A stretch of DNA of 64,000 nt from Candidatus Krumholzibacteriota bacterium (GTDB lineage: Bacteria; Krumholzibacteriota; Krumholzibacteriia; JAJRXK01): assembly GCA_029262065.1 (NCBI GenBank), contig JAJDAC010000027.1:186001-250000 (forward strand). Reading direction: 5' to 3'. Every line of letters starts with the position of its first letter. The stretch's first letter is position 1. The notes under the pieces are model-generated. The model was not told where the DNA came from. It searched no databases and saw only the letters and a program-made list of their open reading frames with translations. This document shows positions 2,871-22,251 of this stretch, one piece after another. Position numbers and translations under genes: made by a program.

Positions 2871-4256
2871 CTAGGAGACGTTCTGACGCGCCGCGGCGAT
2901 GACCTTGAATTCCACGGCAATGGGCGTAGGCAGGGATTCTACCTCAATCGTGGTGCGGGTGGCACCAATGGGCCCGAAGGTCTCGGCGTATACTGCGTTG
3001 AACTTCGGAAAGTCGCGCTTCATATCGATCAGGAAGCAGGTGATGTCCAACACGTCGTTCAGGGACGAACCGGCCGACTCCAACACCGTGCGCAGGTTGG
3101 CAATGACGGCGCGCGTCTGAGCCTCGACATCGTAGTCCAGAGGCTTGCCGTTCTCATCACGTACAGGCCCACCGGGTATTTCATCGGTCCCAGGAGTACG
3201 AGGTCCCATTCCCGAAAGAAACAGAAGATCGCCCACCCGCCGTGCGTGAGGAAACGCACCGACGGGACGGGGGGCTTTTTCGGCGTGGATGGCGCCATCG
3301 ATTGACGGCTCGGTGGACGAGGTTTCCACTTCAGATCCCTCGTCCGCCACCGTCCCGGCGCCAGACAGCACGTTGCGGTCGCCCGTATACACTTCGACGT
3401 CTTCTTCGTCAAACTCCAGATCGCCCGACGCGCGCTCGGCCGGAGTGAGCCCCACGATCGCCGCGCCGGTTCCCCAAATGGGTTGGTAGTCGAACACGCG
3501 ACCCTCGTAGCGATTGTTCTGACCCATGAGAGCCGCCAGCCACCAGATGGCCTTCATGCGTTGATCGCCGTTGGCCTGAGCCGCGAAATCGCGCGCATGC
3601 TGCGATACGTCTTCCAGGCGCCCGTGCTCCAGGATTTCCAGGATCTTCCGGTTCCACTCGTCGTCCTTCTCGGACGAGATGTGATCTTCCTTGGGGTCGA
3701 TCTCCTGCGTGAACATACGATTCGAAAGCGCGGTGACCGCCACCGCGATCACGCGCTTGTTGGAGTCGCGCACGGCGTCGGCCGCCGCTTTGCCCAGCAC
3801 CAATGTTTCGCCGCGGTCGGCGTACATGTTGCACGACACAATGCCCGATGGAATGCGGTTGTCGGGATTCAAGAGCTTCAGCGCAACCACCGACCCCGTA
3901 TCGATCGGAAAGCCATGGTAGGCCACGGTACGCGCGTGCAGCCCGCGGGCCTGCGCGGCTTTGCAATAGGCTTGGGCAAACGGAGCGTCGATGTTGAACT
4001 CGTAGGGCATTTCGCCCAATTCGTGCCACTCGGAATCCACGAGGGTCCACACGGGTTTGGGATCGGCCTGCATCTGGTGACCGATGATGCTGATCCACTG
4101 CGTGCTGTAGATGAGCATGAGGTCGGCGTCGAGCTGCGCGATCTCCCGGCCCACCTCATCGTAGGCGTTGCGCAACGATTGCCAGGCCGGCGACTTCTCG
4201 GGGGCGAGCAGCGGGTGCGGCCGCCCCGGAACAATGTAGCCACGCACGATGCTCAT
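2871..4256 (-). CDS. Fusion: 2-aminophenol 1,6-dioxygenase alpha-like subunit + RidA/2-aminomuconate deaminase-like domain
   Basis: This is a 461-aa protein. I placed the start at the ATG at 4256 because it overlaps the stop of the upstream dioxygenase gene (ATGA); the longer frame is only read-through. Residues 1 to about 275 form a LigB-fold extradiol dioxygenase subunit resembling AmnA. The metal-ligand motif of the catalytic partner, HSPHW, is replaced here by YSTQW (residues 50-54), so this half should not bind iron itself. An acidic linker (about 280-323) leads to a complete RidA/YjgF domain (324-461) with LFLSGMGPR, GATRTTIEVESLP (Arg434) and AVEFKVIA (Glu449). In the known amn pathway the alpha subunit and 2-aminomuconate deaminase (AmnD, a RidA relative) are separate proteins. 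Fusing them would join ring cleavage to a later deamination, an inference not tested here. Confidence 0.8.
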   Translation of the reverse strand: MSIVRGYIVPGRPHPLLAPEKSPAWQSLRNAYDEVGREIAQLDADLMLIYSTQWISIIGHQMQADPKPVWTLVDSEWHELGEMPYEFNIDAPFAQAYCKAAQARGLHARTVAYHGFPIDTGSVVALKLLNPDNRIPSGIVSCNMYADRGETLVLGKAAADAVRDSNKRVIAVAVTALSNRMFTQEIDPKEDHISSEKDDEWNRKILEILEHGRLEDVSQHARDFAAQANGDQRMKAIWWLAALMGQNNRYEGRVFDYQPIWGTGAAIVGLTPAERASGDLEFDEEDVEVYTGDRNVLSGAGTVADEGSEVETSSTEPSIDGAIHAEKAPRPVGAFPHARRVGDLLFLSGMGPRTPGTDEIPGGPVRDENGKPLDYDVEAQTRAVIANLRTVLESAGSSLNDVLDITCFLIDMKRDFPKFNAVYAETFGPIGATRTTIEVESLPTPIAVEFKVIAAARQNVS

Positions 4257-5152
4257 GCCGTGGCCTTCGCATTCTCGGGGTCCCACTCGACCACCGCATT
4301 GCCGGTGCCAATGACACTTCCATAGCCGTGCACCTCGGCCGGATAGTCGGGTACACCCAGCGCGCTCATGAGCCAGGTAAGACAACCCTCTTTGGTTTCT
4401 GAATTGGCCTGTTCGACAAAGTCGGGCATCTCGGCCATGAGCTGCGCGCACTTGCCTTCGCGCATGAGCCCCAGTACGCGCATGTCCCACAGGTATTGGC
4501 CGTGGTGGTAGATGTGCTCCTGGGACATGTCTTCGGGAATCGCCGACTCCACGGTGAAATGCCGGTGGCTCAGACTGCAGCTGGCCAGCAGGCAGGCTCG
4601 GCGCCCACTCTTCTCCACGGCGTTTCGCGTGGCTTCACCCAGGGCGATCATTTCCTCGTCGCCCACCTCGTTCGAGAAGTAGTAGTGCGACGCGTTCGAA
4701 GAAATGCCGACGATGGGAATGTTCCACTCGGGGTTGATCAGATGGCACGAGGCGATGGTGCCGTAGTCCACCCGGAAACCCGGGTTGCGCATCATCTTGG
4801 TGAGAATGCCCGCGGCCTTCAGGCCGTCGTACAGGCACTCGGCCAGCTCCAGATCCACATCAAACCCGTACTTGTAGCGAAACAGGTTGGGGAAGATGGG
4901 ATCGACGGACAGCCCATCGCAGCGCGGAATACCCAGCACATGGTGGCCCACCACCGTCTTCCAGTGCGGCGAGTGCACGATGAACACGTCGGGTTTCTTG
5001 GCCAAAACGTTCTTGCGGCATCGCTCGTAGCCCCAGCGCAGGGTTTCCCACCCGCACTCGGCCTTGGGCTCGTTCTGGGGGGCGTTTTCCGCGTACACCA
5101 GATGGGGCGGATGGGGGGCGAGGACGCCTGAAATGATGGTGCCGGTGCTCAT
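4253..5152 (-). CDS. Class III extradiol dioxygenase, 2-aminophenol 1,6-dioxygenase beta-like (catalytic)
   Basis: This is a 299-aa LigB-fold (PF02900) dioxygenase. Candidate Fe(II) ligands are His14 in LAPHPPH, a histidine of HSPHW (60-64) and Glu273 near the C-terminus in AEVHGYG. NPEWNIPIVGIS and SNASHYY are typical of the catalytic subunit of ring-cleaving enzymes acting on aminophenols or catechols, such as AmnB. Its stop overlaps the start of the alpha-RidA fusion by 4 nt, fitting an alpha2beta2 enzyme made in equal amounts. No clear Shine-Dalgarno precedes the ATG at 5152. The substrate is inferred: 2-aminophenol fits the RidA partner, but a catechol or 3-hydroxyanthranilate-like compound is possible. 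Confidence 0.8.
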   Translation of the reverse strand: MSTGTIISGVLAPHPPHLVYAENAPQNEPKAECGWETLRWGYERCRKNVLAKKPDVFIVHSPHWKTVVGHHVLGIPRCDGLSVDPIFPNLFRYKYGFDVDLELAECLYDGLKAAGILTKMMRNPGFRVDYGTIASCHLINPEWNIPIVGISSNASHYYFSNEVGDEEMIALGEATRNAVEKSGRRACLLASCSLSHRHFTVESAIPEDMSQEHIYHHGQYLWDMRVLGLMREGKCAQLMAEMPDFVEQANSETKEGCLTWLMSALGVPDYPAEVHGYGSVIGTGNAVVEWDPENAKATA

Positions 5153-5270: not shown

Positions 5271-6398
5271 CTAGATCTGGTGTGGTCCGTACGACGCCAG
5301 AAAGGCTTCCGCCATCGTGGCGTGCCCCACCGCACTGAAGTGCACATCTCCGGGGAGAAAGTACCGGCGCAATGCATCTTCAGATGTCTCCCCGGCTAGC
5401 GGGAAGAACGGAGGGAATAGATCCATGAAACGGACGTCGTTCCGCGCGCACCACATTCGCCAGTATTCCACGTGTTTGGAATCGGCGCGGTCGTAGAGGA
5501 CCTGATCGGGCCAGGGATAAACGACCACGGTCATGTCGATGCCGTGGCCGTCCAGCACGCCCTTCAACTGCCGCATGCGCTCGGCCGCCCGCTTCAGGCC
5601 ACGCTCACCGTAGTCTTGCATCACACTGGCATCGTAGGTCCACGTGGCGCGCGGGCGATCGACGAGAGGCAATCGCAACTCGCCGTCGGCATCGGTTTCG
5701 AAACGAGATCGCTGTCGGCGCACGCGAAGATCGGAGGCCAGATGGGCCACCACCGAGTTGTTGCGCACGGTTGAGCGAAGCGTTCGGTTTGGCCCCGGGT
5801 CGGCTGCGTTGAACCGGAACAACGCCTGGGCCCAATCAGGCGCTCCCTCCATGTGGAAGATGACCGATTCGTCGTGGTCGAGGTCATAGAACAACGCTTC
5901 ATCGGCGATGTCGGAGATATCCAGGAATACCACGACCTCATCCAGGTGCAGTCGTTTCTCTTCCACCAAATACTTCACCTTGCGGTAGTAGATGGTGGGT
6001 GAGTACGACACCACGGCTGCGTTGAGGACCTCGGTGTTCTCGGAGTTCAGTGCGCTGGCAATGCGTCCAGCAAACGTGGACTCGTAGGGAAAGCCTACGC
6101 CCTCGGTAAAGGAATCGCCGATCAGTAGAACGCGCCGGTGGCTAGTCAAGGCTGTAACCTTGCGCGCCGTGGCGTCCTTGAAGCCCAGACTGTTCGTATG
6201 GAGAATGTGTCTGCGTGGACCCCAGGCGGCCGCAGCATCGATCAGCGGAGCCAGATCGTGGTGATAAATCGAAGACTGGATCCGATAGGAGGCCGGGGGC
6301 AGTGGCGTCCAGCCGCCGACGAACTGCTTGCCCACCTGGGCCAGCAGTAGATCGGCCACCAATAGAGCGAAGAGGCTCAGCAGCAGATTTCGAACCAT
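5271..6398 (-). CDS. SGNH/GDSL-family hydrolase, membrane-anchored
   Basis: This 375-aa protein has an N-terminal hydrophobic segment (residues 3-22), probably an uncleaved anchor or a signal peptide. The SGNH block I motif VLLIGDSFTEG follows, with the nucleophile Ser96. Downstream, NAAVVSYSP matches the block II region. Near the end, PGDVHFSAVGH supplies the Asp351/His353 pair of the catalytic triad. Such periplasmic SGNH proteins usually deacetylate or acetylate polysaccharides, or hydrolyse esters; the substrate is unknown. It is flanked by unrelated genes with about 120 nt on the 5271 side, so it may be monocistronic. Confidence 0.75.
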   Translation of the reverse strand: MVRNLLLSLFALLVADLLLAQVGKQFVGGWTPLPPASYRIQSSIYHHDLAPLIDAAAAWGPRRHILHTNSLGFKDATARKVTALTSHRRVLLIGDSFTEGVGFPYESTFAGRIASALNSENTEVLNAAVVSYSPTIYYRKVKYLVEEKRLHLDEVVVFLDISDIADEALFYDLDHDESVIFHMEGAPDWAQALFRFNAADPGPNRTLRSTVRNNSVVAHLASDLRVRRQRSRFETDADGELRLPLVDRPRATWTYDASVMQDYGERGLKRAAERMRQLKGVLDGHGIDMTVVVYPWPDQVLYDRADSKHVEYWRMWCARNDVRFMDLFPPFFPLAGETSEDALRRYFLPGDVHFSAVGHATMAEAFLASYGPHQI

Positions 6399-6436
6399 CT
6401 CTCACCTGCGAGCGGCTGGCGATGAGACGAGGGCCT

Positions 6437-7534
6437 TCAGCTTAGCACCGAATGTCCATGGGTTCGAGCGGGTTCGCGAGTCTCGGCCAGCTGGCCGATG
6501 GGAATCTGCAACCGAAACTCCGTACGTCCTGGCCTACTTTCGACTTCCAACCGGCCACCGTGCAATCTGGCCACTTCCCTGGCCAAAGCCAGACTCAAGC
6601 CCTGGCCCTGCGAGTGATGATTCACATCGGGCTCATTGAACGCTTCGAACACGTACGGGAGGTGGGCCGACTCAATGCCAGATCCGTGGTCGACCACCGA
6701 TACCTTGACGCAGGCGCCGACGACCTTCAATTCAACCCACACGGGGGCCACGCCGTATCGAATGGCGTTGTCGAGCAACGCTTCCACTACGTCCGTCAGC
6801 GCCGCGGCGTCACCTGCTACCGAAACCGGCTCAACCTCAACCACGAGTTCGGCGTCGGCGAGGTCATGGGCGCATTTCATCATGGAACACACCTCCCGGA
6901 CGCTTTCCGCAAGATCCACGGACACCGTCTCGTCGAGCTCCTGCGATAGCTTGAGCGAACTCAATCGTAGGACCCTTTCCAACAACTCGCGAAGGCGTTG
7001 CGCGTTGCTGGTCGCGGTTTGAAGCATGTCCGCGTCGTCGGGAGAAAGCCCCTGGTTGAATCCCATGATCTCCAGTGGCGCCAGAATCCCCGTGAGCGGG
7101 GTGCGCGTCTCGTGAGCCAGCATGGACAACACCGAACGCTGGAACGCCTCCAGTTCTTCCACGTTCTTGAGCCGCAGGAACACCCGTACCTTGGCCAGTA
7201 GTTCATCGTGGTCGAAGGGCTTGGCGATGTAGTCGTCGGCACCGGCCGCGTAGCCTTGCAGGCGGTCCAACACCTGACCCTTGGCTGAAACCATGACGAT
7301 CTTGGTGTGACTCAGATCGGGTTCGGCGCGGATCCGGCGGCACGTCTCCAGCCCGTCGAGACCAGGCATCATTACGTCCAGCAGGATCAGGTCGGGCAGG
7401 AAATCGTGCGCTTCAGCCAGGGCATCCAAGCCACTCTGAGCCTCGCGTAGCTCGTAACCTTCGTCGCCCAACACCTTGGACAGGATGGTCAGGTTGTTGG
7501 CGTTGTCGTCAACCAACAGCACTCTCGACTTCAT
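6437..7534 (-). CDS. Response-regulator/histidine-kinase hybrid (REC-HisKA-HATPase)
   Basis: This is a 365-aa soluble protein. I chose the ATG at 7534 because it overlaps the preceding kinase stop (ATGA) and begins exactly at the receiver domain. The REC domain (residues 1-120) shows VDD at 8-10, phospho-acceptor Asp53 in LILLDVMMP and Lys105 in AKPF. A HisKA domain follows with SMLAHETRTPL (His141). The HATPase domain carries the N box DNAIRYG, G1 DHGSGI and G2 GQGLSLALA. There is no membrane segment and no DNA-binding output, so it probably receives phosphate from the upstream kinase and passes it on. Target genes are not evident from the neighbourhood. Confidence 0.88.
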   Translation of the reverse strand: MKSRVLLVDDNANNLTILSKVLGDEGYELREAQSGLDALAEAHDFLPDLILLDVMMPGLDGLETCRRIRAEPDLSHTKIVMVSAKGQVLDRLQGYAAGADDYIAKPFDHDELLAKVRVFLRLKNVEELEAFQRSVLSMLAHETRTPLTGILAPLEIMGFNQGLSPDDADMLQTATSNAQRLRELLERVLRLSSLKLSQELDETVSVDLAESVREVCSMMKCAHDLADAELVVEVEPVSVAGDAAALTDVVEALLDNAIRYGVAPVWVELKVVGACVKVSVVDHGSGIESAHLPYVFEAFNEPDVNHHSQGQGLSLALAREVARLHGGRLEVESRPGRTEFRLQIPIGQLAETREPARTHGHSVLS

Positions 7535-8517
7535 CGACTTCCTCTGGGATTGAGGTGGGGCAGGGTGATACGAATGCAAGCGCCGCCAGACTCTGGATTT
7601 TCGGCGCCAATAGTGCCGCCGTGCCCAGACACGATCTCGCGACACAACGCGAGGCCCAGGCCAGCGGTGCCGTGCGTCGATGGCGAATGGCGCGACTGGG
7701 TAAACTTCTCGAAGACGCTGTCGACTTCGTCGGGATGGAAACCCGGTCCCTGATCTTCGATACGTAGCTCTATTTCGTCGCCCCGTGCCTCCAGGCGCAC
7801 GACAATGGCTCCACCGGCCGGCGACACTCTCAATGCGTTCGACAGGATGTTTCTCAACACCTGGCACATCCGCTGGTCATCTAGTCGTACGACCATCTCC
7901 ATGGGCATGAAGCACTTCAGCTCTACTTGGGCTTGCTGGAACAAGGATTCCATTTCCGAGCCGACCACCTTCACCTGGAACGCAAGGTCGGTGTCGTCGA
8001 GTCGAAATTCCATGTTCCCCGACTCGAGCCGGGATAGGTCCAGAAGGTCCGTGATGAGCTCCAACAGGTTCTGGCCGTTCGTGGATATCTGTTCAAAGTA
8101 GTGCGCCAGGCTCTCCCGATCGGCGTGCTGATGTTCCTTCACACCGAACGTGGAAAAACTGAGAATGGAATGGAGCGGCGTTCGCAGTTCGTGCGACACG
8201 TTGGCCAGGAACTCGCTCTTGGCCGCGTTTGCTCGATGGGCCTCGATGCTCTTGTCTTCCAGTTCTTCGTTGTAGCCCGCCACCACACCCAGCACGCTTT
8301 CCAATTGCGATTCGGTCGCGCGACGCGTGGTGATTTCTTCGCGCAGCCGATCATTGATCGTCGCGAGTTCGGTCGTGCGCTCTTCGACCCTTCGTTCGAG
8401 CCGTTCGTTGGCTCGGAGCAGCTCCCGACTCTTCTTCTCCAGAAGTTCTTTCGCGAGCTCGCGCGCGCGGCGCTCTCGACCTGCCCGCCGTTGCCACCGA
8501 TCGATCATCGTAGTCAT
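7531..8517 (-). CDS. Soluble sensor histidine kinase
   Basis: This kinase is 328 aa from the ATG at 8517. The frame is open to a TTG at 8640, but the extra residues look non-kinase and no good ribosome site is seen, so the start is uncertain. Residues 5-95 are a long charged coiled coil with an RRVEERTTEL stretch typical of linkers before HisKA. The H box FLANVSHELRTPLHS holds His109. The catalytic domain has an N box (RNILSNALRVS), G1 (EDQGPGF), F box (VFEKFTQ) and G2 (GTAGLGLAL). No transmembrane or PAS segment is visible, so the signal may arrive through the coiled coil. It is translationally coupled to the REC-kinase hybrid downstream. Confidence 0.85.
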   Translation of the reverse strand: MTTMIDRWQRRAGRERRARELAKELLEKKSRELLRANERLERRVEERTTELATINDRLREEITTRRATESQLESVLGVVAGYNEELEDKSIEAHRANAAKSEFLANVSHELRTPLHSILSFSTFGVKEHQHADRESLAHYFEQISTNGQNLLELITDLLDLSRLESGNMEFRLDDTDLAFQVKVVGSEMESLFQQAQVELKCFMPMEMVVRLDDQRMCQVLRNILSNALRVSPAGGAIVVRLEARGDEIELRIEDQGPGFHPDEVDSVFEKFTQSRHSPSTHGTAGLGLALCREIVSGHGGTIGAENPESGGACIRITLPHLNPRGSR

Positions 8518-8656
8518 GATGGGGTAGGCACACTCATACTGGGACGGCTTTCCGGAGGTGAGCACCACGACACCAGGCGCGGGGGAGCGCGGCATATTCC
8601 AGAAAGGATATCGGTAACAAATCGGCGCCCTTGAGACCAATTTTGTGATGACAGTG

Positions 8657-8669
8657 GGGGACGGTCCCC
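8657..8669. repeat. Short GC palindrome in a REP-like context
   Basis: GGGGAC-G-GTCCCC is a 6-bp perfect palindrome around one base. It is followed by TCTGACCCC, so a looser outer TGGGG/CCCCA pairing is also possible. It lies in the spacer between the divergent kinase and barrel genes. The wording resembles repetitive elements mobilised by REP-associated Y1 transposases, but I see only one copy and no transposase in this window, so the class is uncertain. Confidence 0.35.
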
Positions 8670-8738
8670 TCTGACCCCATAGTGTCTACAGGTGTCAGCC
8701 CGGCTGCCTTCTGACCCGCACAGAAAACCGGCCCATTT

Positions 8739-9362
8739 ATGAAGTGTGTTCAACTGATAGCATTGATAGGTAGCCTCTACGCGGTTTTCTCTGCCACGGA
8801 CGCGACGGCACGAGGTCGCATACACATCAACGCCAGTGCCGGATTCTCGGATCCAGATATCGAATCCCATTTCCAACTCAGTGGATCGCTGGGAGGACGC
8901 CCCGAAGACAAGCGGCCAGCCTTTCAGGTCGGAGCACAGTATTCGGATGTCCGGGCGTCAGGAGTTTCGTTGGGGCTTTCGGTGGAATATGCCAATCGGG
9001 GTCCAACCGTGCTCGAATCCAGCCGGCAGGCGTTCGTCGAACCTGAGTCGCGGCACTATGTGGTGTTTGGCTTGCCGTTGGAATACGAGCACACCCTGTC
9101 GCAGGCCGGACTGGGGGTGGGATTGAGTATCCGACCTCAGTTGTCCCTCTGGAGCGGAACGAACGACTTTCCCATCGACCAGAAACACTTTCCCAGGGTC
9201 GAAGGCAGCGTCCAGGCCTCGGTATTCGTCCGGCGAAATCGTATTCGCGGTCACTTCTTGGTCTTGTTTGATTCATGGAGCCAGACGGGATCTCTGACCA
9301 GAGTCCGCGATCGGACCGTTCTTCTGGGCGTTTCCTACGAGATCTTTGCGAAGAACTATTGA
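8739..9362 (+). CDS. Secreted beta-barrel-like outer membrane protein
   Basis: This 207-aa protein has an N-terminal signal peptide (about residues 1-24, cleavage likely after ATA). Alternating hydrophobic/polar strands with many Gly and aromatic residues follow (for example GVSLGLSVEYANRG, VVFGLPLEYEH, LGVGLSIRPQLSLW). The final strand VLLGVSYEIFAKNY ends on an aromatic residue, as expected for an outer-membrane barrel of about eight to ten strands. No family is recognised. The 3' end overlaps the convergent gene 9356-10039 by 7 nt. Confidence 0.6.
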   Translation: MKCVQLIALIGSLYAVFSATDATARGRIHINASAGFSDPDIESHFQLSGSLGGRPEDKRPAFQVGAQYSDVRASGVSLGLSVEYANRGPTVLESSRQAFVEPESRHYVVFGLPLEYEHTLSQAGLGVGLSIRPQLSLWSGTNDFPIDQKHFPRVEGSVQASVFVRRNRIRGHFLVLFDSWSQTGSLTRVRDRTVLLGVSYEIFAKNY

Positions 9363-10039
9363 AACCGCGCCTTCAATGACGACCACGAAGATTGCGTTGT
9401 CGGCGTGCCCGAAATCACCGTGATGTCCGGTGCGATCCCCAGGTGCCGCAGGTTGAGATTCGAGGACGGATCGGCCGGACCGGTGAACGAACCCTCTGCG
9501 TACGCGTAGACCCGGATTTTTACGGGTTCGGTGGTCGGGAACCCACTGGTATCCAGTTCCAGGCTCCGCACATCTCCGCCCACAGTTACCCGACAGTTGC
9601 CATCACATGGGTACGCGCTGATCTGGAATCGGTCGGGATCTGAGTCACTTGTCCATTCAACGAGCAAGGACGAACCCTGGTCGATGGAAGCCCCGTCGAG
9701 CGGAGCCATGATGACCGGTTTGGCGGGAACCACGTCTGTACATGTGATGGTATCAGGACCGATCTGGACGACCAGCTCAAAGGGGTCACCGGCCTGAAGC
9801 TCCTCGGGCAGGTCCTGGGAATACCGGGCTCCCGAAACAAACGGCAGGGTGACGCCGTTGATCGTGACCGTGGCGTCGGTGATGGGATCGTTGTCGCTGG
9901 TCCAGACACTCACGTGCTGGTGGAATACGCCCGTGTCGCCTCCGGAGACAATGTATGAACTTCCGGCATGAGCGGGGCCAACGGCGAGTGCCATGACCAT
10001 GGTTGCAGCTAAGACAAATAGTTGTCGATCGGGGCACAT
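9356..10039 (-). CDS. Secreted Ig-like protein with C-terminal SSW..KA.F motif
   Basis: This is a 227-aa protein from the ATG at 10039. That start has a strong upstream AGAAGGAG site and begins a clean signal peptide ending in GPAHA. The mature part has two small beta-sandwich-like regions: HVSVWTSDNDPITDATVTING resembles a polymorphic Ig-like strand set, and PVIMAPLDGASIDQGSSLLVEWT resembles a fibronectin/Ig-like module. Two cysteines (PCDGNC) may form a disulfide. The extreme C-terminus TQSSWSSLKARF closely matches the tail of another secreted protein at 33280-33873. Function is unknown. Confidence 0.65.
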   Translation of the reverse strand: MCPDRQLFVLAATMVMALAVGPAHAGSSYIVSGGDTGVFHQHVSVWTSDNDPITDATVTINGVTLPFVSGARYSQDLPEELQAGDPFELVVQIGPDTITCTDVVPAKPVIMAPLDGASIDQGSSLLVEWTSDSDPDRFQISAYPCDGNCRVTVGGDVRSLELDTSGFPTTEPVKIRVYAYAEGSFTGPADPSSNLNLRHLGIAPDITVISGTPTTQSSWSSLKARFQ

Positions 10040-10189
10040 GGTGAGATCTCCTTCTGGACTCGTAACACCCTGCAATACTGAACTTGGGGCCGGTTCTCGG
10101 CGCCGCGTGCCACACGCACGGGCGCAACCGCCTTTCTGAAGTTCTGGTCGTGCCAACGTCGAGGGTGTGACCGTGAACTGCCCTTGAAT

Positions 10190-11647
10190 TCAGGGGGTCT
10201 TCTTCACGCAAACGTTGGTCGCCTCGCTGAAGAACTCCAATGAGTACCGCCCACCCTCGCGCCCCACGCCGCTTTCCTTCACGCCACCGAACGGCACGCG
10301 CAGGTCGCGATGCAACCAGGTGTTCACCCAGACCATGCCGGTCTGCAATGCCGCGCTCACGCGATGCGCTCGGCCCAGGTCACGCGTCCACACCGAGGCA
10401 CTGAGTCCGTACCGCACACCGTTGGCCATGGCTATCGCCTGGGCCTCGGTATCGAAGGGGTGCACAGTAACCACCGGACCGAAGATTTCCTCGGTTGCGG
10501 TTCGACAGTCCGAAGGAAGTCCACCGACCACGGTGGGCTGAAGAAACGCTCCCCGATCGAGCGGCGCGGGTAACGACGGCCGCTCTCCGCCGCACAGAAT
10601 GGTGCCGCCTTCTTCGCGCGCCAGGCGAACGTAGCCCTCGACCTTGTCGCGATGGTCCTGCGAAATGAGCGAACCCAGCTGCGTGTCCTCGGCGTCGGGA
10701 TCGCCAAGGCGCATCGACTTGGCCTTTTCCACCAACGCCGCAGTGAATTCGTTCTCAATAGACCGTTCTACCAAAAGCCGGGATCCGCAAAGACACACCT
10801 GGCCCTGGTTCAGAAAGGCGGCGCGCGCGGCTCCCTCCACGGCGGCTTCGAAATCGCAATCGGCAAACACCAGGGTAGGGTTCTTACCGCCCAGTTCCAG
10901 ACTCAACTTCTTGAAGTGAGGCGCCGCCGTTGCAGCCACCATGCGACCGGTCGTGGTTCCGCCGGTAAACGAGATGGCGTTCACATCGGCGTGTTCTACC
11001 AATGCCTGACCGGCCTCACCGCCCAATCCATGCACCAGGTTGAACGCGCCCGCTGGCGCTCCCGCCTCGTGAATGATTTCGGCCAGAGCCGTCGCGGTCA
11101 TGGGCGTAAGCTCACTAGGCTTGGCCACCACGGCGTTGCCCATGACCAACGCGGGTGCGGTTTTCCAGCTCAACAGATACAAGGGCAGGTTCCACGGAGT
11201 GATCAGCGCTACCACACCCACCGGCTTGCGCAGCGTGTAGTTGATGGCGTCGGGCATTTCAAAGAAATCGCCCGATTGGTGCCGGGCCGCGCCCGCGAAG
11301 AACCGGAAGTTCGCCACCGCCCGCGGTATGTCCACATTGCGCGCCATCGTGATCGTCTTGCCGGTGTCCTGTGACTCCAGGCGCGCCAGCTCTTCGGCGC
11401 GCGCTTCTATTCCGTTGGCGATCGCGTCGCAAAGGTCGGCGCGTTGGGCCAGAGTCCAGCCGGCCCAGGGACCCTGCAAAGCCGCCTTGGCCGCCTCGAC
11501 CGCTCGGTTCACGTCCTGGAAAGTGCCGCGCGCAATGCGCCCCAGAACCGCGCCCGTGGCCGGCTGAATGTCGTCGAGCCAGGCGCCGTCGACCGGACCG
11601 GCGAATTCACCGCCGATGTAGTGGGGAAGTTGACCGGGTGCGCTCAA
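10190..11647 (-). CDS. Aldehyde dehydrogenase, 2-amino/2-hydroxymuconic semialdehyde dehydrogenase-like
   Basis: This 485-aa NAD-dependent aldehyde dehydrogenase has Asn153 in TPWNLP, the general base Glu251 in LELGGKNP and the nucleophile Cys285 in NQGQVCLCGSR. The CLC-SR form of the active-site loop is typical of the ALDH8/AmnC/DmpC group, which oxidises 2-aminomuconic or 2-hydroxymuconic semialdehyde from ring cleavage. The start is a TTG at 11647 overlapping the previous stop (TTGA), so it is coupled to the asparaginase-like gene. The pathway fit with the extradiol dioxygenase/RidA genes at 2.9-5.2 kb is good, although they lie 5 kb away. Confidence 0.85.
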   Translation of the reverse strand: MSAPGQLPHYIGGEFAGPVDGAWLDDIQPATGAVLGRIARGTFQDVNRAVEAAKAALQGPWAGWTLAQRADLCDAIANGIEARAEELARLESQDTGKTITMARNVDIPRAVANFRFFAGAARHQSGDFFEMPDAINYTLRKPVGVVALITPWNLPLYLLSWKTAPALVMGNAVVAKPSELTPMTATALAEIIHEAGAPAGAFNLVHGLGGEAGQALVEHADVNAISFTGGTTTGRMVAATAAPHFKKLSLELGGKNPTLVFADCDFEAAVEGAARAAFLNQGQVCLCGSRLLVERSIENEFTAALVEKAKSMRLGDPDAEDTQLGSLISQDHRDKVEGYVRLAREEGGTILCGGERPSLPAPLDRGAFLQPTVVGGLPSDCRTATEEIFGPVVTVHPFDTEAQAIAMANGVRYGLSASVWTRDLGRAHRVSAALQTGMVWVNTWLHRDLRVPFGGVKESGVGREGGRYSLEFFSEATNVCVKKTP

Positions 11648-12804
11648 CTCTGACCTCCGGGGGCAAACGGGTCACGACCGCGTTCGTCGCCGACGTTTTC
11701 TTCTGCGTAGCGGTCCCAGCGGTAGTACCACCGATCCCGGTCGGGATCCCAATCGTCCCAGGTAGCCACGCGTTCGAGCGTATCCAGACGATCGGGCGGG
11801 ACGACGCCCTCCACGAGAAACGCCTTCTGCTTGTACAGCGGATACGGATTGCGCAACGTGATGCCCAATGTGCCCAGTATGGCCCGCGCCACGTACCACG
11901 TGGCCTGCGGGTTCCAACCGTGCGCGATCTTTACGACCACGCCCAAACCGTTTGGATAGTCGGGGTGCTCGATCGCCATCCCCAACAGCCCGTCGGCACC
12001 TTCCTTGGCAATGACCTTGCCCGCGCCCGCCTTCAGAATCGTGCTGTCCAGACGATTGAATCCGCCGACCAGGTCGGGGTGACGGACCATGGCCTCCCAG
12101 ATCCAATCGTCGTGTCGGTCGGCGGCAAGTGACGCGTAGACCTTCGCCAATTCCGACACAGTCATACTGATAGTGGGGAACCCGTCGCCATCGCGCGCGA
12201 CTCGTTTGGGCTGCCACGAATCACCCAGCACCACGCGCACGCGATCCAGATACGCTTGGAAGAACACGTGGTGGGGTAGCGTGTACCCCGCGCGATTCCA
12301 CCCCTTGAGCCGGCAGCCCAGCAGGATGGCCGCGTGCTGACCAGACGAATTGTTGTACCAGCGTCGTGGCCGACGCACCTGGCGCCCAAACTGCACCAAC
12401 GGCACATCGAGAGGGGTTTGCATCAGTCCCCATTCTTCTTCGGGCAACAGCGACTGCGCCGCCGCCACGTGCTCGGCGCCACCGTTGTGACTGGCCACCG
12501 AAATGGCGCGTTGCTCCCAGCTGGTCACCTTCTCCAGCTCGTCGGTGAATACCTTCAGCATGATGGGCTTCATCATGCTGCGGCCGTAACACAGCACATT
12601 GCCACCGAAGCTGTGCGCGATATCACCGCCCGAGGCCCAGGCCACCGCACCGTGAATGGTGGTTTCGCTAACGCCGTTGCGGCGATAGTCCACCAGCGGT
12701 TGCCACTCGACGTCGCGACCGGTGGGAATTCCCTCGACCGTTTCACCCAGAGCGCTACGTGGGTAGGACTTGCTCGTGGCGAGAATGCGTTCGTTGCCGC
12801 TCAT
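11644..12804 (-). CDS. Asparaginase II (PF06089) family amidohydrolase
   Basis: This 386-aa protein belongs to the class with a serine/lysine SxxK active site (Rhizobium ReAV-type). Ser76-Met-Met-Lys79 is seen in CYGRSMMKPIM. The conserved region around SVASHNGG and NNSSGQHAAIL follows, with DGFPTISM and KEGADGLLGMAI further on. The last contains a lysine (KVIAKEGADG) matching the conserved C-terminal catalytic Lys region. Family members hydrolyse L-asparagine. It overlaps its neighbours by 4 nt on both sides, between a flavin monooxygenase and a semialdehyde dehydrogenase, so a different amide substrate in an aromatic pathway is possible. That role is an inference. Confidence 0.75.
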   Translation of the reverse strand: MSGNERILATSKSYPRSALGETVEGIPTGRDVEWQPLVDYRRNGVSETTIHGAVAWASGGDIAHSFGGNVLCYGRSMMKPIMLKVFTDELEKVTSWEQRAISVASHNGGAEHVAAAQSLLPEEEWGLMQTPLDVPLVQFGRQVRRPRRWYNNSSGQHAAILLGCRLKGWNRAGYTLPHHVFFQAYLDRVRVVLGDSWQPKRVARDGDGFPTISMTVSELAKVYASLAADRHDDWIWEAMVRHPDLVGGFNRLDSTILKAGAGKVIAKEGADGLLGMAIEHPDYPNGLGVVVKIAHGWNPQATWYVARAILGTLGITLRNPYPLYKQKAFLVEGVVPPDRLDTLERVATWDDWDPDRDRWYYRWDRYAEENVGDERGRDPFAPGGQS

Positions 12805-14027
12805 GATCCAATGAGTTCCTTCACCCGGGGCGCCACGACTCGCATGAAGGCCTCCTGGTTGCGAATGACCCGACCGGAGTCGTGATTGAAGAAGTCGAAC
12901 CAGAGCATGAGTCGATCTTCGGCATGAAAGCGCTCGGCCACCTGCTGCGCCACGTCCTCGGCGTTGCCGATCAGCGCGTTGTGCGCGGCCTTCTCTACCT
13001 TCGAGGGATCGAGTGTGCCTTCCAAAGCAGTCCAGTACGCACCCAAGGCTTCTTTCGCCTCGCCCTCGGCCTGCTCACGCTGGGCGCCGGCCGTCAGGTC
13101 GGGTTCGTCGTTGAGAAAAACAAAAACCGTGCGTGGCATGTAACTGCGCTGCCAGGGCCCACCATCTTCGTGATAGGCCTTGGCCATGCGGGCATGCGTT
13201 TCCTCGATGATCTCGGGTCGCGTGATGGACAGGTTGAAGACCTGCACCGGCATGTACTCGTTGGCCAGCTGCTGCAACGTGGGATCGTGCGAGCCGATCA
13301 CCAGCTGCATCAGTTCGCGCCGGAAGTCCTGGGGGACGATCTTCAGCTTCTCGAACGTCCATCGCCGCGGAAGCTCGATGACGTCTCCCGAAACCTTGGC
13401 CAGTTCACGCGCGCGCTCCCAGTCTTCGTCGCTGCGGAAATGGGCCCGGCGCAACACCGGTCCGGGCACGTCATCGCTACTCAGCGCATCCCCACGCAGT
13501 AGCCTACATAGGATATGCGTGGCCTCTTCCAGGATGCGACTCTTGCACACCGGCCAGAACGCTTCCTCCAAAGGAGTTCGGGGAACGATCTGACCGGCCG
13601 CATTGTTGAAATCGAACCGGCCGGCCGCGAACCCCACGTGGATCCGCCGCTTCTCGGCCGGCGACAGTCCATGCAAACCCAGAAACGTTGCGATACGTTC
13701 GGCGTGGGCAATCGGACCACCGTTGCAAAGCATGTTCATGACGGCCGACCCAACTTCGATGCGTTCGGTCTGCTGGTAGACGCGCGCCGCCAGCTGCAGA
13801 ATGTCGGTATTCAGCCCCACCTCGCCGTGCCAGTGCGGAATGACGGGGCGCCTGTTTTCTTTCTGCACTTCGCTCGACAGGTGGGCTTCGGCCACCCAGG
13901 CCACCCCGTAGCCCTGCCGATCAGCCGCGCGCACCTGATCGAAGAAGTTGCGGAACATGACCGCTTCGCTCGGCAGGGTCCCGCCCGCGGGCGTTTGGCT
14001 GATGGAAAAGAAGATGTCGAATAACAT
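12801..14027 (-). CDS. LLM-class flavin-dependent oxidoreductase (luciferase-like monooxygenase)
   Basis: This 408-aa TIM-barrel protein matches bacterial luciferase-like monooxygenases. The pattern runs FFDQVRAADRQGYGVAWVAEAHL near residues 28-50, LQLAARVYQQTERIEVGSAV as the second strand/helix, AHAERIATFLGLHGLSPAEKRRIHVGFAAG as the flavin-site region, and a late LIGNAEDVAQQVAERF segment typical of the family. These enzymes use reduced FMN and oxygen to hydroxylate or cleave substrates, so they need a separate flavin reductase. It starts 8 nt after the SDR gene and overlaps the asparaginase-like gene by 4 nt. The substrate is unknown; an aromatic-pathway intermediate is plausible from context. 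Confidence 0.8.
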   Translation of the reverse strand: MLFDIFFSISQTPAGGTLPSEAVMFRNFFDQVRAADRQGYGVAWVAEAHLSSEVQKENRRPVIPHWHGEVGLNTDILQLAARVYQQTERIEVGSAVMNMLCNGGPIAHAERIATFLGLHGLSPAEKRRIHVGFAAGRFDFNNAAGQIVPRTPLEEAFWPVCKSRILEEATHILCRLLRGDALSSDDVPGPVLRRAHFRSDEDWERARELAKVSGDVIELPRRWTFEKLKIVPQDFRRELMQLVIGSHDPTLQQLANEYMPVQVFNLSITRPEIIEETHARMAKAYHEDGGPWQRSYMPRTVFVFLNDEPDLTAGAQREQAEGEAKEALGAYWTALEGTLDPSKVEKAAHNALIGNAEDVAQQVAERFHAEDRLMLWFDFFNHDSGRVIRNQEAFMRVVAPRVKELIGS

Positions 14028-14035
14028 GGTGCCGC

Positions 14036-14839
14036 CTACAGCGAGTGAAGCCGACCACCTTCGACGGCCAGGCTGCTACCCCGGATGTAGGACGCCAAGG
14101 GGGAGGCAAGGAATAGAACCGCCGCGCCGATCTCGTCGGGGCGCGCCAAGCGACCTTCGGGAATTCCCGCTACCCAACCGTCTTCAACCTGCTGCGGCGT
14201 TTGGCCGGTGCGGCCCGCCACCGCCTCCTTGAGGCTTTCGAGCCGCTCGGTGGCGGTGTATCCGGGCAGGACATTGTTGATGGTCACGTCGGGCGGAAGC
14301 TCGTTCGCAATGGTCTTGGCCCATCCCACCATGCCGGCGCGAATGGCATTGCTCAGCCCCAGCCCGGGAATGGGCTCGCGCGCCGACGTGGACAGGATGT
14401 TCACGAACCGCCCGTAACCGGCCTCGCGCATCCCGGGCAGAAGCTGCAGGACCAGACTGTGGGCCGTGAGCTGGTGGCGCTCGAACGTGGCCAGCAGATC
14501 CTCTTCGGTCTTCTCGAGCAATGGGCCGGACTTGGGGCCACCCGTGTTGTGCACGAGAATGTGAATCGGGCCGTGGGCCTTCAGGTGCGCTTCGACCTGG
14601 GCGCGCAAGCGGCCACGGTCATCCATGTCGACCGCAATGGCGTATGCGTTGGGTGCGCCCAGCCCCTTCAATTCATCACACAGAGCAACGAGCTTGTCTT
14701 GTGAACGAGCCAGCACGGTGACCGTTGCACCGGCGCCCGCCAGGGCCAACGCACAGGCGCGGCCGATGCCCGAGCTGGCGCCCAGCACCAGTGCGTGCCG
14801 CCCCTGTAGATCTATTTGTGTACCTGCGTTTTTAGCCAT
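14036..14839 (-). CDS. SDR-family protein lacking the usual YxxxK active site
   Basis: This 267-aa Rossmann protein has the cofactor motif GASSGIG (residues 20-26) and an NTGG in place of NNAG. A serine region NILSTSA is present. The expected catalytic Tyr-x-x-x-Lys is absent: the matching stretch reads GLGLSNAIRAGMVGW. I know a beta-ketoacyl-reductase-like SDR subgroup (cd05344-like) with the same departure from the tetrad. Such proteins occur in some aromatic-degradation gene sets. It may bind NAD(P) and catalyse something other than classical carbonyl reduction. It lies 31 nt after the glycosyltransferase and 8 nt before the LLM monooxygenase. Confidence 0.8.
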   Translation of the reverse strand: MAKNAGTQIDLQGRHALVLGASSGIGRACALALAGAGATVTVLARSQDKLVALCDELKGLGAPNAYAIAVDMDDRGRLRAQVEAHLKAHGPIHILVHNTGGPKSGPLLEKTEEDLLATFERHQLTAHSLVLQLLPGMREAGYGRFVNILSTSAREPIPGLGLSNAIRAGMVGWAKTIANELPPDVTINNVLPGYTATERLESLKEAVAGRTGQTPQQVEDGWVAGIPEGRLARPDEIGAAVLFLASPLASYIRGSSLAVEGGRLHSL

Positions 14840-14870
14840 GCCACGAAACTACCACGCCCGCTGGCCAACG

Positions 14871-15572
14871 TCATCCCGCGCGTTGACGCCCCTCGTAGTG
14901 CCGCGCCAAGCGTTCCGGCGATACCCCCAGCCAGTACAATAGCACCAGCCACACATTGCGGAATTGTTGCCGAACCACACCGTGGTCCAGAAACCTCCGC
15001 GCAGAGGTCGTGGCCGGCCGGTCCACCAGCGTGGTTTGCCCCGCCGCGCTCAATCGCCGAAAGAACGCCACGTCTTCCATGAGCGGCACCTCGGGGAAGC
15101 CTCCCAAATCGAAAAAGACCGGGCGGCGCACGAAGAAGCCCTGGTCTCCGTACCGCAAGCAGGTCAGCGGCAGGCGCGTGAGACTCGCGCAGGCGCAAAG
15201 CAGCGGATGCGTGCAGTCGAAACGAAGCGTAAACGATCCCCCCACCACGCCTGGTTCGCACAGCGCCTCCACCATGCTGGCCATGCTGCCCGGCGAGAGA
15301 CGCGTATCGGCGTGTACGAACAGAAGTATGGGAGCCGACGTGGATCGCGCCCCTGCATTCATCTGCACGCTTCGTCCACGGACGGTCTGCACCACACTGG
15401 CCCCCATCGACCGGGCCAGATCAACGGTAGCGTCCTGACTGCCACCGTCGGCTACGACTACTTCGTAGGATACTCCCGCCGCGGCTTCGTATATGGCGCG
15501 CAGACACGCCGGCAATCGCGACTCTTCGTCGAGGGTGGGGATGACGACCGCGACCTGCAGGGGGCGCTTCAC
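14871..15572 (-). CDS. Family 2 glycosyltransferase, TIGR04283-like
   Basis: This 233-aa protein starts at a GTG (15572) that overlaps the upstream oxidoreductase stop (GTGA); an upstream ATG at 15614 is a poorer choice. A GT-A fold is clear: VAVVIPTLDEE near the start, VVVADGGSQDATVDLA for nucleotide-sugar binding, and FVHADTRLS carrying the DxD-like metal motif. GGSFTLRFD, YGDQGFFVRR and PLMEDVAFFRRL follow. The last (ED) is the expected base region. The pattern matches TIGR04283 transferases, often found near radical SAM or phosphatase genes, none of which occur here. The acceptor is unknown, and its presence in a catabolic run may be incidental. Confidence 0.8.
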   Translation of the reverse strand: MKRPLQVAVVIPTLDEESRLPACLRAIYEAAAGVSYEVVVADGGSQDATVDLARSMGASVVQTVRGRSVQMNAGARSTSAPILLFVHADTRLSPGSMASMVEALCEPGVVGGSFTLRFDCTHPLLCACASLTRLPLTCLRYGDQGFFVRRPVFFDLGGFPEVPLMEDVAFFRRLSAAGQTTLVDRPATTSARRFLDHGVVRQQFRNVWLVLLYWLGVSPERLARHYEGRQRAG

Positions 15573-16999
15573 CCCAACCACCGATACGCCCGGGCTACCC
15601 AACTGCGCACCCAACCGCGCTCACTCCACTCTCGAAAGTAACCGTCGGCCGCACGCTGGTTGAGCAGCGAGAAAGTGGGATAGACATGTACGGCGCCAGA
15701 AATCTGTGACGCTTTCAACTTGTGCTCCACCGCCAGGATCCACTCCTGGATCAATTCGCCCGCGTGCGCCGACAGTATCTGTGCGCCCACGACGCGTCCG
15801 GTCCAGCCCGCAATGACTACCTTCACGAGTCCCGATTCGTGGCCATCGGCCAGCGCCCGATCCACGCGGTCCACGCCGAAGCGCAGCACACGAACGCGCC
15901 GATGCTTCTTGCGCGCTTGTTCTTCGGTCAGGCCCACCGAAGCCAGTTCGGGCTCGGTAAACGTAGCCCACGCCACCGTGTCCTTGCGAAACCCCGAGGG
16001 CAGGCCGAAGGCGATGTTGCGCGACGCCGCCCGGCCTTCCGCTTCTGCCATGTGCGAGAACGGATACCGCCCGTTCACGTCGCCCAGGCCCCAGATATTT
16101 CGCGCGGTGGTGCGAAAGTTCCCATCCACGTAGACGCCGCTTCGCTCCACGCGAACTCCAGCGGCGTCCAGATTCAGGCTCTCGACGTTGGCCCGACGGC
16201 CGGCCGCTACGAGGAATTCGTCGGCGTGTACGGTGTGCTCTTCCTCGTCATGACGCAGAACGATCTCCCACTCCTGGCCTCGGGCGGCCCGCACGACCTG
16301 GCTGTTCAGCCGAAACTGGACACCTTCGGCTTCCAGTTGGGAGCGCAGTAGCACAGTAAGCTCGGGATCATCCTGGGGAAGGATCCGATCGAGCATCTCG
16401 ATCACGGTCACACGGCTTCCCAGTCGCGCGAAGGCCTGCGCCATTTCCAGACCAATGGGCCCTCCACCCAGCACCGCCAAACGCTCGGGAAGTCTGGACA
16501 GGGAGAAGATGGTCTCGTTGGTCAGAACGTCATTGGCGTTCATTCCCTCGATAGGGGGGACGAACGGGCGGCTGCCGGTACACAAGACAAACTTCTTGGC
16601 GCGGACGTTTTCGTCGCCCACGCGCACGGTGTAGGCATCGATGAAACTGGCTTCGCCAAACTTCACGTCTTCGACGTGCTCGGCCTTCACCATGTCGACG
16701 GTTTCGTGTTCCTGGATGCCCGCCACCACGCGTTGCACCCGACCCATGATAGCCTGTAAGTCGACCGTGCCACGGTCGAGAGCCGGTAGGCCGTAGTGCG
16801 CGGTACGACCGGCCTCGTGCCATTGTCGCGCCACGGCCAGTAGGGCCTTGCTGGGCACGCAGCCGGTGTGTAGACACTCGCCACCCAGCTCACCGGTTTT
16901 TTCCACCAGACACACGCGCGCGCCAAGGTGCGCCAGCACGCCCGAACTCACGAGGCCGGCGGCTCCGCCGCCTATGACCACAATGTCGTATTCAGTCAC
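15569..16999 (-). CDS. FAD-dependent pyridine nucleotide-disulfide oxidoreductase (mercuric reductase/lipoamide dehydrogenase-like)
   Basis: This 476-aa class I flavoprotein disulfide reductase has the FAD motif VVIGGGAAGL at residues 7-16 and the redox pair Cys42-x4-Cys47 in GGECLHTGCVPSK. The NAD(P) motif is LAVLGGGPIGLEMA, and a dimerisation domain begins near TFTEPELASVGLTEEQA. The active-site base region near the C-terminus reads HVYPTFSLLNQRA, where typical members have a His-Pro-Thr. Here YPT keeps the pattern without the exact HPT, so true lipoamide dehydrogenase activity is doubtful. I chose the GTG at 16999, with a GGGAG site 6-7 nt upstream. It lies 88 nt after the tryptophan dioxygenase gene and is coupled to the glycosyltransferase. 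Confidence 0.82.
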   Translation of the reverse strand: MTEYDIVVIGGGAAGLVSSGVLAHLGARVCLVEKTGELGGECLHTGCVPSKALLAVARQWHEAGRTAHYGLPALDRGTVDLQAIMGRVQRVVAGIQEHETVDMVKAEHVEDVKFGEASFIDAYTVRVGDENVRAKKFVLCTGSRPFVPPIEGMNANDVLTNETIFSLSRLPERLAVLGGGPIGLEMAQAFARLGSRVTVIEMLDRILPQDDPELTVLLRSQLEAEGVQFRLNSQVVRAARGQEWEIVLRHDEEEHTVHADEFLVAAGRRANVESLNLDAAGVRVERSGVYVDGNFRTTARNIWGLGDVNGRYPFSHMAEAEGRAASRNIAFGLPSGFRKDTVAWATFTEPELASVGLTEEQARKKHRRVRVLRFGVDRVDRALADGHESGLVKVVIAGWTGRVVGAQILSAHAGELIQEWILAVEHKLKASQISGAVHVYPTFSLLNQRAADGYFREWSERGWVRSWVARAYRWLG

Positions 17000-17087
17000 G
17001 CCGCACTCCCGACCAGGGGGGTGGGACCAGGGCTCATGCAATAAAGTACGGGACTTCGTCCACGTGGGACTCACAAAGTCGCTCGGG

Positions 17088-18182
17088 CTAGGCAAATCCG
17101 TAGAACTCGGCGTTGCGCAGAGGAGGCAGCGAGTCGGCGGCAAGAAGTATGGAGCGCACCGCCCACAACTCCGGGAAAATGCGCCCCTGCGCCGCGCGAT
17201 CCAGATAGTCCACCCCCGACGAACCACCGGTGCCCACGCGTCGGCCAATGGTGCGCTCGGTCATACGCGCGTGGCGATTGCGCCAAAGAACGAACTGTTC
17301 CTCGACCTCGACCACGGTATCCACCAGCACGCGCGGCCACGATAGCAGGGGCAGCTGACGGTACGACTCAATGAACAACAACCCGGCGCGGATGCGCGTG
17401 AGTCGGGCACGACCGTCTTCAGGTTCGTCCTGCGCCAACAGAAAGCCACGGGTTTCCTGGGCACTGACTTCGAATCGTTTGCGTAACGCATCGGCGTCGT
17501 GCACGCGTAGTTCGAGCAGACGTTTTTCCTGCTTACCTTGCGATGTGCGGTAGGCCGCTTCGTACTGGTTCACGAATTCCAGAACAGCCTCTTCGTCGCC
17601 CGCGTCGTCGGGGGAAGACCCCTGGATGGGCGTCCGGAACAACCAACCATGAAGTGCATCGCGTAGGCTCATCTCGGCGCGAACCGCATCCAGATGACGT
17701 TGAGCCATATCACCGGCCGCGCTGCCGGGAGCGCGTTCTTCGATGTGCCGCACCGGCTCGACGTTGCCGTAGCGGGGACGATTCTCGGGCTTGAGCCCCA
17801 TGAGAATCTCCAACTCCCGCATCTGGAAACTCTGGAAACCACTGGCCGGGGCAAGCTTGTCGCGAAACGCCAGGAAGTCCTGTGGCGTGAGCGTTTCCAT
17901 GACCGCCCACTGTTGCACGGCGAGCTTGAGAATTTCGGCCACGCGCCTCAGGTGGTGAACGACGTGGGGGACGTGCTCTTCGGCGATTTCGGGTTCGGCT
18001 AGATGGTCGCGGGCCTCGCGTAGCTCACGCAACATGAGCTTGAACCAAAGCTCGTAGACCTGATGGACGATGATGAAATGAAGCTCGTCGGACATGAGCT
18101 GACGCTCATCGCCCTCGATTCCGCCCTGGATTGACAGCAGCTGATCGAGCTTCAGGTAGTCCCAGTAATTCGGCCCGCTCAA
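17088..18182 (-). CDS. kynA: Tryptophan 2,3-dioxygenase
   Basis: This 364-aa heme enzyme makes N-formylkynurenine from L-tryptophan, the first step of the kynurenine route. Family marks are FIIVHQVYELWFK (with His40 in the substrate pocket), SGFQSFQMRELE, the heme-axial His304 in LWRNRHARM, and VGTGGSSGVDYL near residues 317-326. It is longer than the roughly 300-residue bacterial enzymes, with extra sequence around residues 150-220. The start is TTG at 18182, with GGGAG 6 nt upstream. A perfect 10-bp inverted repeat lies just beyond that site, suggesting control of initiation or transcription. Kynurenine formamidase, monooxygenase and kynureninase genes are not recognisable in the window. 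Confidence 0.93.
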   Translation of the reverse strand: MSGPNYWDYLKLDQLLSIQGGIEGDERQLMSDELHFIIVHQVYELWFKLMLRELREARDHLAEPEIAEEHVPHVVHHLRRVAEILKLAVQQWAVMETLTPQDFLAFRDKLAPASGFQSFQMRELEILMGLKPENRPRYGNVEPVRHIEERAPGSAAGDMAQRHLDAVRAEMSLRDALHGWLFRTPIQGSSPDDAGDEEAVLEFVNQYEAAYRTSQGKQEKRLLELRVHDADALRKRFEVSAQETRGFLLAQDEPEDGRARLTRIRAGLLFIESYRQLPLLSWPRVLVDTVVEVEEQFVLWRNRHARMTERTIGRRVGTGGSSGVDYLDRAAQGRIFPELWAVRSILLAADSLPPLRNAEFYGFA

Positions 18183-22181: not shown

Positions 22182-22251
22182 ACCACCTGGCAGTCCAGAA
22201 AGGCGGATTTCGAACTGATGGGTGACCCACGCCCTTCGGAAGGAATCCGCC

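Follow-up and report, generated by a model that had tools for sequence, protein, structure and literature searches.

How does a bacterium equipped with a tryptophan 2,3-dioxygenase (TDO) and without a recognizable kynureninase dispose of kynurenine? The question is raised by a 64,000-nucleotide stretch of the genome of a Candidatus Krumholzibacteriota bacterium (contig JAJDAC010000027.1; hereafter the window). On its minus strand, genes for TDO, a pyridine nucleotide-disulphide oxidoreductase (PNDR), a glycosyltransferase (GT), a protein of the short-chain dehydrogenase/reductase fold (SDR), a luciferase-like flavin monooxygenase (LLM), a class-3 asparaginase-fold hydrolase (AspII) and an aldehyde dehydrogenase (ALDH) follow one another in the order of transcription, with the genes for AmnB and for AmnA fused to RidA further along (Table 1). 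Sequence comparison assigns most of these genes to a conserved operon, TDO-SDR-LLM-AspII-ALDH-AmnB-AmnA/RidA-(KynB). We interpret this operon, which is widespread, as serving the breakdown of tryptophan via kynurenine without kynureninase or 3-hydroxyanthranilate dioxygenase (3-HAO), and give the reactions proposed below a probability of roughly 0.65. A preliminary description of this DNA had proposed an atypical tryptophan/kynurenine route, a proposal borne out by the conserved gene order, the co-occurrence with TDO and the missing classical enzymes.

Searches with the LLM protein in 80 genomes of the phylum to which the window belongs revealed homologues in 4 further genomes. The related loci (L009-L013) display the arrangement SDR-LLM-AspII-ALDH-AmnB-AmnA/RidA with TDO alongside, ALDH and AmnB following after a gap in one genome (G002). 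A five-sequence LLM alignment scanned against 84,980 genomes yielded 206 relatives, the best 80 of which were retrieved and inspected together with the 5 loci above; many of these 85 loci are cut by contig ends. According to the record titles, the LLM-bearing genomes belong to Planctomycetota, Myxococcota, Acidobacteria, deltaproteobacteria, marine Euryarchaeota, Poseidoniia and others. SDR accompanies LLM at 71 of the 85 loci, AspII at 64, ALDH at 61, AmnB at 39, AmnA at 37, TDO and RidA at 34 each, and KynB at 27. The order TDO-SDR-LLM-AspII-ALDH-AmnB-AmnA-RidA-KynB recurs nearly unaltered in unrelated phyla and is rearranged in few loci (for example, L029, L060, L040 and L068); conservation of gene order in relatives had been named beforehand as a test of the preliminary description. 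The pairwise divergences of the operon genes are correlated (r mostly 0.4-0.95), as expected when genes travel together, and the mean pairwise identities of LLM (62%) and AspII (72%) indicate strong conservation. We have little doubt that the operon is a conserved, kynurenine-linked catabolic unit.

Several LLM homologues were found in other settings. At L036, L041, L050 and L056, LLM has neither SDR, AspII nor ALDH nearby and lies beside a conserved unknown protein; the genome containing L036 encodes TDO. A homologue with 51% identity is carried by the Streptomyces clavuligerus megaplasmid pCLA1 (L014:15001-16245), where its role could be to provide 2-aminophenol for another process; with no other operon genes around it, this locus was set aside as an example of the operon. 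The SDRs borne on plasmids are only ~40% relatives and were likewise set aside. Two records titled Klebsiella pneumoniae (L028 and L086) contain LLM, SDR and ALDH; both are bins from metagenomes whose labels are very probably wrong.

The link to tryptophan rests on TDO, for which the window carries the only gene of its genome. The protein is divergent from the bacterial model, scoring 181.7 bits against the TIGR03036 equivalog cut-off of 390.7, and the haem/substrate motif residues H40, R122 and H304 are retained in all aligned homologues. Among the 80 genomes of its own phylum, all 5 with LLM fall within the 9 that encode TDO (p=5e-6), and the same holds for the 14 LLM-bearing genomes among 294 sampled Planctomycetota, all of which are among the 135 with TDO (p=1.3e-5), although the p-values of such co-occurrences overstate independence because the species are related.

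Consistent with the preliminary description, no complete classical kynurenine set was found in the genome. The best kynureninase match reaches 36.7 bits (cut-off 246.4), and kynureninase was not found in 52 of 55 LLM-bearing genomes. No protein exceeds the PF06052 cut-off for 3-HAO in 33 genomes searched, including that of the window, and kynurenine 3-monooxygenase (KMO), sought with the KMO of a planctomycete locus (L136) in the window and the 85 loci only, gave no match there. Among the Planctomycetota genomes with TDO, kynureninase-type matches occur in 1 of 14 with LLM versus 55 of 121 without (p=0.004); when only matches above the curated cut-off are counted, the contrast is 1 of 14 versus 26 of 121 (p=0.18). 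Kynureninase is encoded by 13 of the 80 genomes of the window's own phylum, only 1 of which also has TDO. The kynureninase clusters of this phylum (L144 and L145) were considered as related sites and rejected, as none of the other genes is present there.

Formamidase, also reported as missing, is indeed not encoded in the run; however, KynB is present on another contig of the same genome (G000:C23:46534-47148; 229 bits, cut-off 223). Elsewhere it lies inside the operon (27 of the 85 loci), where a 209-residue protein at the operon end matches the arylformamidase model TIGR03035 (E=1e-55, under the curated cut-off), and it is present in 27 of the 33 genomes searched, which argues for kynurenine as an intermediate. 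Twelve loci, mostly from marine archaea by title, instead carry a formyltransferase-fold protein (PF00551) with the N-x-H...RG motif kept. The two proteins do not occur together at any of the 85 loci, and the 5 genomes with the PF00551 protein lack KynB, which is found in 27 of the other 28. This complementary occurrence suggests that the formyltransferase-fold protein replaces KynB; in marine archaea, a one-carbon carrier may be the acceptor of the formyl group. The general idea that LLM and the amidase are non-orthologous replacements stands, but the amidase, AspII, is not the stand-in for formamidase. That role was rejected as the main idea for AspII because KynB accompanies AspII in most KynB-bearing operons and the genome of the window encodes KynB.

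The lower end of the route can be read from the enzymes following AspII. The best solved relatives of AmnB are the beta subunits of 2-amino-5-chlorophenol (3vsg) and 2-aminophenol 1,6-dioxygenases (E ~1e-116 to 1e-105). In AmnB, the counterparts of the two His and one Glu metal ligands of the 3vsg family are invariant (H14 and H63 in 39 of 39 sequences, E252 in 37 of 37). The adjoining AmnA is most similar to the alpha subunits, the closest solved match of the RidA domain among RidA proteins is the 2-aminomuconate deaminase 6izh, and that of ALDH is 2-aminomuconate-6-semialdehyde dehydrogenase (AMSDH), with the catalytic C285 and E251 and the substrate-binding N153 and R109 invariant in 58-61 sequences. 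Because all 4 components best match enzymes of 2-aminophenol or 2-aminomuconate metabolism, the substrate of ring cleavage is most likely 2-aminophenol, and we regard 2-aminophenol as a very likely intermediate of the pathway. Both the muconic-semialdehyde-type dehydrogenase and the aminophenol-type dioxygenase pointed out as the source of ring cleavage are supported by these matches. The altered active site of SDR is confirmed; in it, the Tyr has given way to Ser163/Asn164 and the Lys to Arg167, a change kept in 71 homologues except for Gly at position 163 in 2 of them.

The position of SDR is informed by L136, which encodes TDO, KynB, KynU and an FAD monooxygenase resembling KMO (PF01494). 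Approximately 5 kb from this classical cluster lies an SDR-ALDH-RidA trio, 46%, 57% and 57% identical to the respective proteins of the window, the SDR sharing the Ser/Asn/Arg motif. We infer from this trio that SDR, ALDH and RidA form a lower branch common to both routes after 2-aminomuconic semialdehyde. Classically, this semialdehyde is formed by way of KMO, KynU, HAAO and ACMSD; with a common lower branch, LLM, AspII and AmnBA would stand in for these 4 enzymes, and since AmnBA would use 2-aminophenol, LLM and AspII would have to turn kynurenine into 2-aminophenol. SDR had also been considered as a flavin reductase of LLM, SDR-LLM being the commonest pairing (71 of 85 loci), a role downgraded because the same SDR subfamily occurs with ALDH and RidA near KMO and KynU, where LLM is missing. 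In mammals, 2-aminomuconate or 4-oxalocrotonate is channelled towards 2-oxoadipate, and our guess, held with somewhat less than even confidence, is that SDR reduces one of these compounds in that direction.

The preliminary description proposed no chemistry; the following sequence of reactions would account for the gene content. TDO would convert tryptophan to N-formylkynurenine, and KynB, encoded on another contig here and in the operon elsewhere, would release L-kynurenine. LLM would insert oxygen into the bond that joins the ring of kynurenine to its ketone in a Baeyer-Villiger reaction, producing 2-aminophenyl beta-L-aspartate. 2-Aminophenyl esters tend to undergo an O-to-N shift giving the 2-hydroxyanilide, in this case an N-substituted asparagine, and the product would tend to rearrange by such an acyl shift to N4-(2-hydroxyphenyl)asparagine. 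Hydrolysis of the asparagine-like ester or anilide by AspII would give L-aspartate and 2-aminophenol, which AmnB/AmnA would cleave to 2-aminomuconic semialdehyde; ALDH would oxidize the latter to 2-aminomuconate, RidA would deaminate it, and SDR would probably act at or after the shared 2-aminomuconate stage. The combination of Baeyer-Villiger oxidation and hydrolysis is favoured because 2 steps suffice to lead from kynurenine to 2-aminophenol.

The structural models of both enzymes are compatible with these assignments. LLM (mean predicted local distance difference test score, pLDDT, 92.9) adopts a luciferase-like fold, with Foldseek matches to an Agrobacterium monooxygenase, luciferases, RutA and the type II Baeyer-Villiger monooxygenase 4uwm, as well as to F420 enzymes. 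Type II Baeyer-Villiger monooxygenases are found among enzymes of the luciferase fold (PMC8706424); the predicted fold thus allows the proposed reaction without proving it. The model of AspII (pLDDT 79, weak in some segments) matches the asparaginases ReAV and ReAIV, and both Ser-Lys tandems of the enzyme (S76, K79, S105 and K267) are invariant; catalysis by ReAV needs two such tandems, Ser48-Lys51 and Ser80-Lys263 (PMC8602277). AspII would fit the second step because the product of LLM would be beta-aspartyl and AspII is a relative of asparaginases with these tandems intact. Its class-3 zinc-ligand sites are S153-Q156-D207 in the window and C-E-C in most relatives, compared with Cys135-Lys138-Cys189 in ReAV, as would fit an enzyme acting on a different substrate.

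We therefore consider a Baeyer-Villiger reaction by LLM followed by hydrolysis by AspII to be probable, and several observations weigh against it. Both steps are predictions from sequence and fold. The sequence of LLM matches no solved structure at E<=0.001, its identity to structural neighbours is ~15% (~14% to 4uwm), and the reaction is therefore not fixed by homology; the fold is also that of F420-dependent and of hydroxylating LLMs. Furthermore, the operon contains no dedicated flavin reductase. At several loci LLM is accompanied by SDR or ALDH but AspII is missing from the vicinity, and a few LLMs are solitary. Three genomes, G008, G093 and G123, encode both LLM and kynureninase (in G093 the kynureninase match falls just short of the cut-off), although the LLM contig of G123 (L078) closely resembles archaeal contigs and may be mis-binned. 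The shared lower branch rests on 1 classical cluster, L136. Finally, DmpH has no match in 31 of the 33 genomes, leaving a continuation through the classical meta pathway unsupported, so that the carbon probably takes another path after RidA.

Other pathways must be weighed against the same data. LLM might hydroxylate C3 of kynurenine in place of KMO, with AmnBA cleaving 3-hydroxykynurenine, itself a 2-aminophenol, and AspII hydrolysing the C-C bond of the ring-opened ketone. The overall products, aspartate and 2-aminomuconic semialdehyde, would be identical and the co-occurrence of genes fits equally; yet AmnB is very close to enzymes acting on unsubstituted or 5-chloro 2-aminophenol, and AspII, a member of an amidase family whose mechanism involves a Ser-Lys acyl-enzyme, is not among the known C-C hydrolases, rendering this scheme unlikely. 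It is more improbable still that the compound degraded is a different 2-aminophenyl ketone or aspartyl compound, the link of the operon to TDO being a side connection: the presence of TDO at only 34 of the 85 loci, partly a consequence of contig ends, and the solitary LLMs would agree with this, but TDO is encoded in all 19 LLM genomes of the 2 phyla, and KynB or its apparent substitute in 39 loci. We give very little credence to a route in which LLM and AspII, or unseen enzymes, produce 3-hydroxyanthranilate and AmnBA substitute for 3-HAO, followed by decarboxylation: 3-hydroxyanthranilate is also a 2-aminophenol and an unknown enzyme could take the place of kynureninase, but no pyridoxal phosphate enzyme or decarboxylase was recognized as a recurring operon member, and kynureninase is missing genome-wide from 52 of 55 genomes. 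A chance grouping of housekeeping and catabolic genes that share no pathway, for which the unrelated insertions in the window (GT, PNDR and a 5 kb segment) could speak, is next to inconceivable, being already contradicted by the gene order conserved across phyla and the correlated divergences.

Baeyer-Villiger oxidation and hydrolysis thus remaining our preferred explanation, the arrangement in the window itself can be considered (Table 1). All genes of the preliminary description were found on the minus strand at the places given there, and their close spacing holds: LLM/AspII, AspII/ALDH and AmnB/AmnA-RidA overlap by 4 bases each (the ATG of AmnA over the stop codon of AmnB), PNDR/GT by 46 bases, and SDR and LLM are separated by 8 bases. 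The run is not one unit, however, since GT and PNDR have no match in any of the 85 loci and were ruled out as operon members; nor does its described extent cover the whole of a real arrangement, the operon reaching on to position 2871. The ring-cleaving enzyme announced at 2.9-5.2 kb is a genuine LigB-type pair with the second subunit fused to RidA. ALDH and AmnB are adjacent in related genomes and separated by ~5 kb of unrelated genes in the window; given this adjacency and the absence of GT and PNDR elsewhere, two insertions seem to have entered this lineage, the GT-PNDR pair and the segment at 5.2-10.2 kb.

Table 1. Genes of the operon and intervening features in the window, with the archaeal formyltransferase-fold protein from related loci.
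Feature	Position	Strand	Evidence and role
TDO (kynA), tryptophan 2,3-dioxygenase	17088..18182	-	PF03301 E=2.6e-61; conserved core member
PNDR, pyridine nucleotide-disulphide oxidoreductase	15569..16999	-	PF07992/PF02852; non-member, apparent lineage insertion
GT, TIGR04283-family glycosyltransferase	14871..15614	-	TIGR04283 223.1 bits, cut-off 182; non-member
SDR-fold protein, Ser150/Ser163-Asn164-Arg167 replacing Tyr-Lys	14036..14839	-	putative shared lower-pathway enzyme; proposed reductase after 2-aminomuconate
LLM, luciferase-like flavin monooxygenase	12801..14027	-	PF00296 E=4e-11; proposed kynurenine Baeyer-Villiger monooxygenase
AspII, class-3 asparaginase-fold hydrolase	11644..12804	-	PF06089 E=1e-43; proposed beta-aspartyl ester/anilide hydrolase
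ALDH, 2-aminomuconate-6-semialdehyde dehydrogenase type (AmnC)	10190..11647	-	best solved match AMSDH E=3e-154
Intervening segment: GDSL-type protein, histidine kinases, response regulator, hypotheticals	5271..10156		splits the operon in this lineage
AmnB, 2-aminophenol 1,6-dioxygenase beta (catalytic) subunit	4253..5152	-	3vsg E=4e-116
AmnA-RidA fusion: 2-aminophenol 1,6-dioxygenase alpha-type subunit + RidA	2871..4256	-	7txy_A E=2e-60
PF00551 formyltransferase-fold protein	L069, L072-L078, L080, L085, L091, L094; e.g. L072:8452-9171		apparently in KynB's place

Divergent to TDO, the window (20502-22178) and the genome G008 (L013:3776-5458) contain a gene for formiminotransferase-cyclodeaminase, a possible one-carbon link to the formyl group. 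Further along, 2 tandem genes (22222-25392 and 25490-28639) encode similar proteins of ~1050 residues with GDxDGDxDL-type repeats and a shared C-terminal domain, which are probably secreted.

On balance, we lean towards an undescribed aerobic tryptophan route present in several bacterial phyla and marine archaea, with a Baeyer-Villiger reaction by LLM, release of 2-aminophenol and aspartate by AspII and, in marine archaea, a formyltransferase-fold stand-in for KynB. No paper linking kynurenine to a luciferase-like monooxygenase or to a Baeyer-Villiger step to 2-aminophenol, or 2-aminophenol dioxygenases to tryptophan, was found in the open-licence literature (bioRxiv and most subscription journals lie outside it). 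If correct, this would be a second mode of ring opening for kynurenine, by chemistry not known for this compound, and would provide functions for an unassigned LLM family (206 relatives in one scan) and a divergent asparaginase family. 2-Aminophenol, usually viewed as a xenobiotic intermediate, would gain a natural metabolic origin, and the annotation of many genomes in which the kynurenine pathway is currently recorded as broken would be corrected.

The proposed route combines parts of several known systems. The 2-aminophenol/2-amino-5-chlorophenol 1,6-dioxygenase pathway of nitrobenzene and chloronitrobenzene degraders (AmnBA; 3vsg, 8ihg) has homologues of AmnB, AmnA, AMSDH and 2-aminomuconate deaminase and the metal ligands in common with it; here, however, AmnA is fused to RidA, DmpH was not found (31 of 33 genomes), and 2-aminophenol would derive from tryptophan. 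LLM shares the fold and the proposed type of reaction with the type II Baeyer-Villiger monooxygenase 3,6-diketocamphane monooxygenase (4uwm), but with its low identity to that enzyme it has a longer chain, and its proposed substrate is an aryl ketone amino acid. Similarly, AspII shares the fold and both Ser-Lys tandems with the class-3 L-asparaginases ReAV and ReAIV, at an identity of ~23%, and differs by S-Q-D in the window, mostly C-E-C in relatives, in place of the C-K-C zinc ligands. The classical kynurenine pathway, in its 2-aminomuconate branch, has TDO, KynB, ALDH, RidA and SDR in common with the operon, both proceeding via 2-aminomuconic 6-semialdehyde; in contrast, the operon has LLM, AspII and AmnBA for KMO, KynU, HAAO and ACMSD, and would release aspartate where the classical route releases alanine. 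What would be new is a variant of kynurenine catabolism with unusual chemistry.

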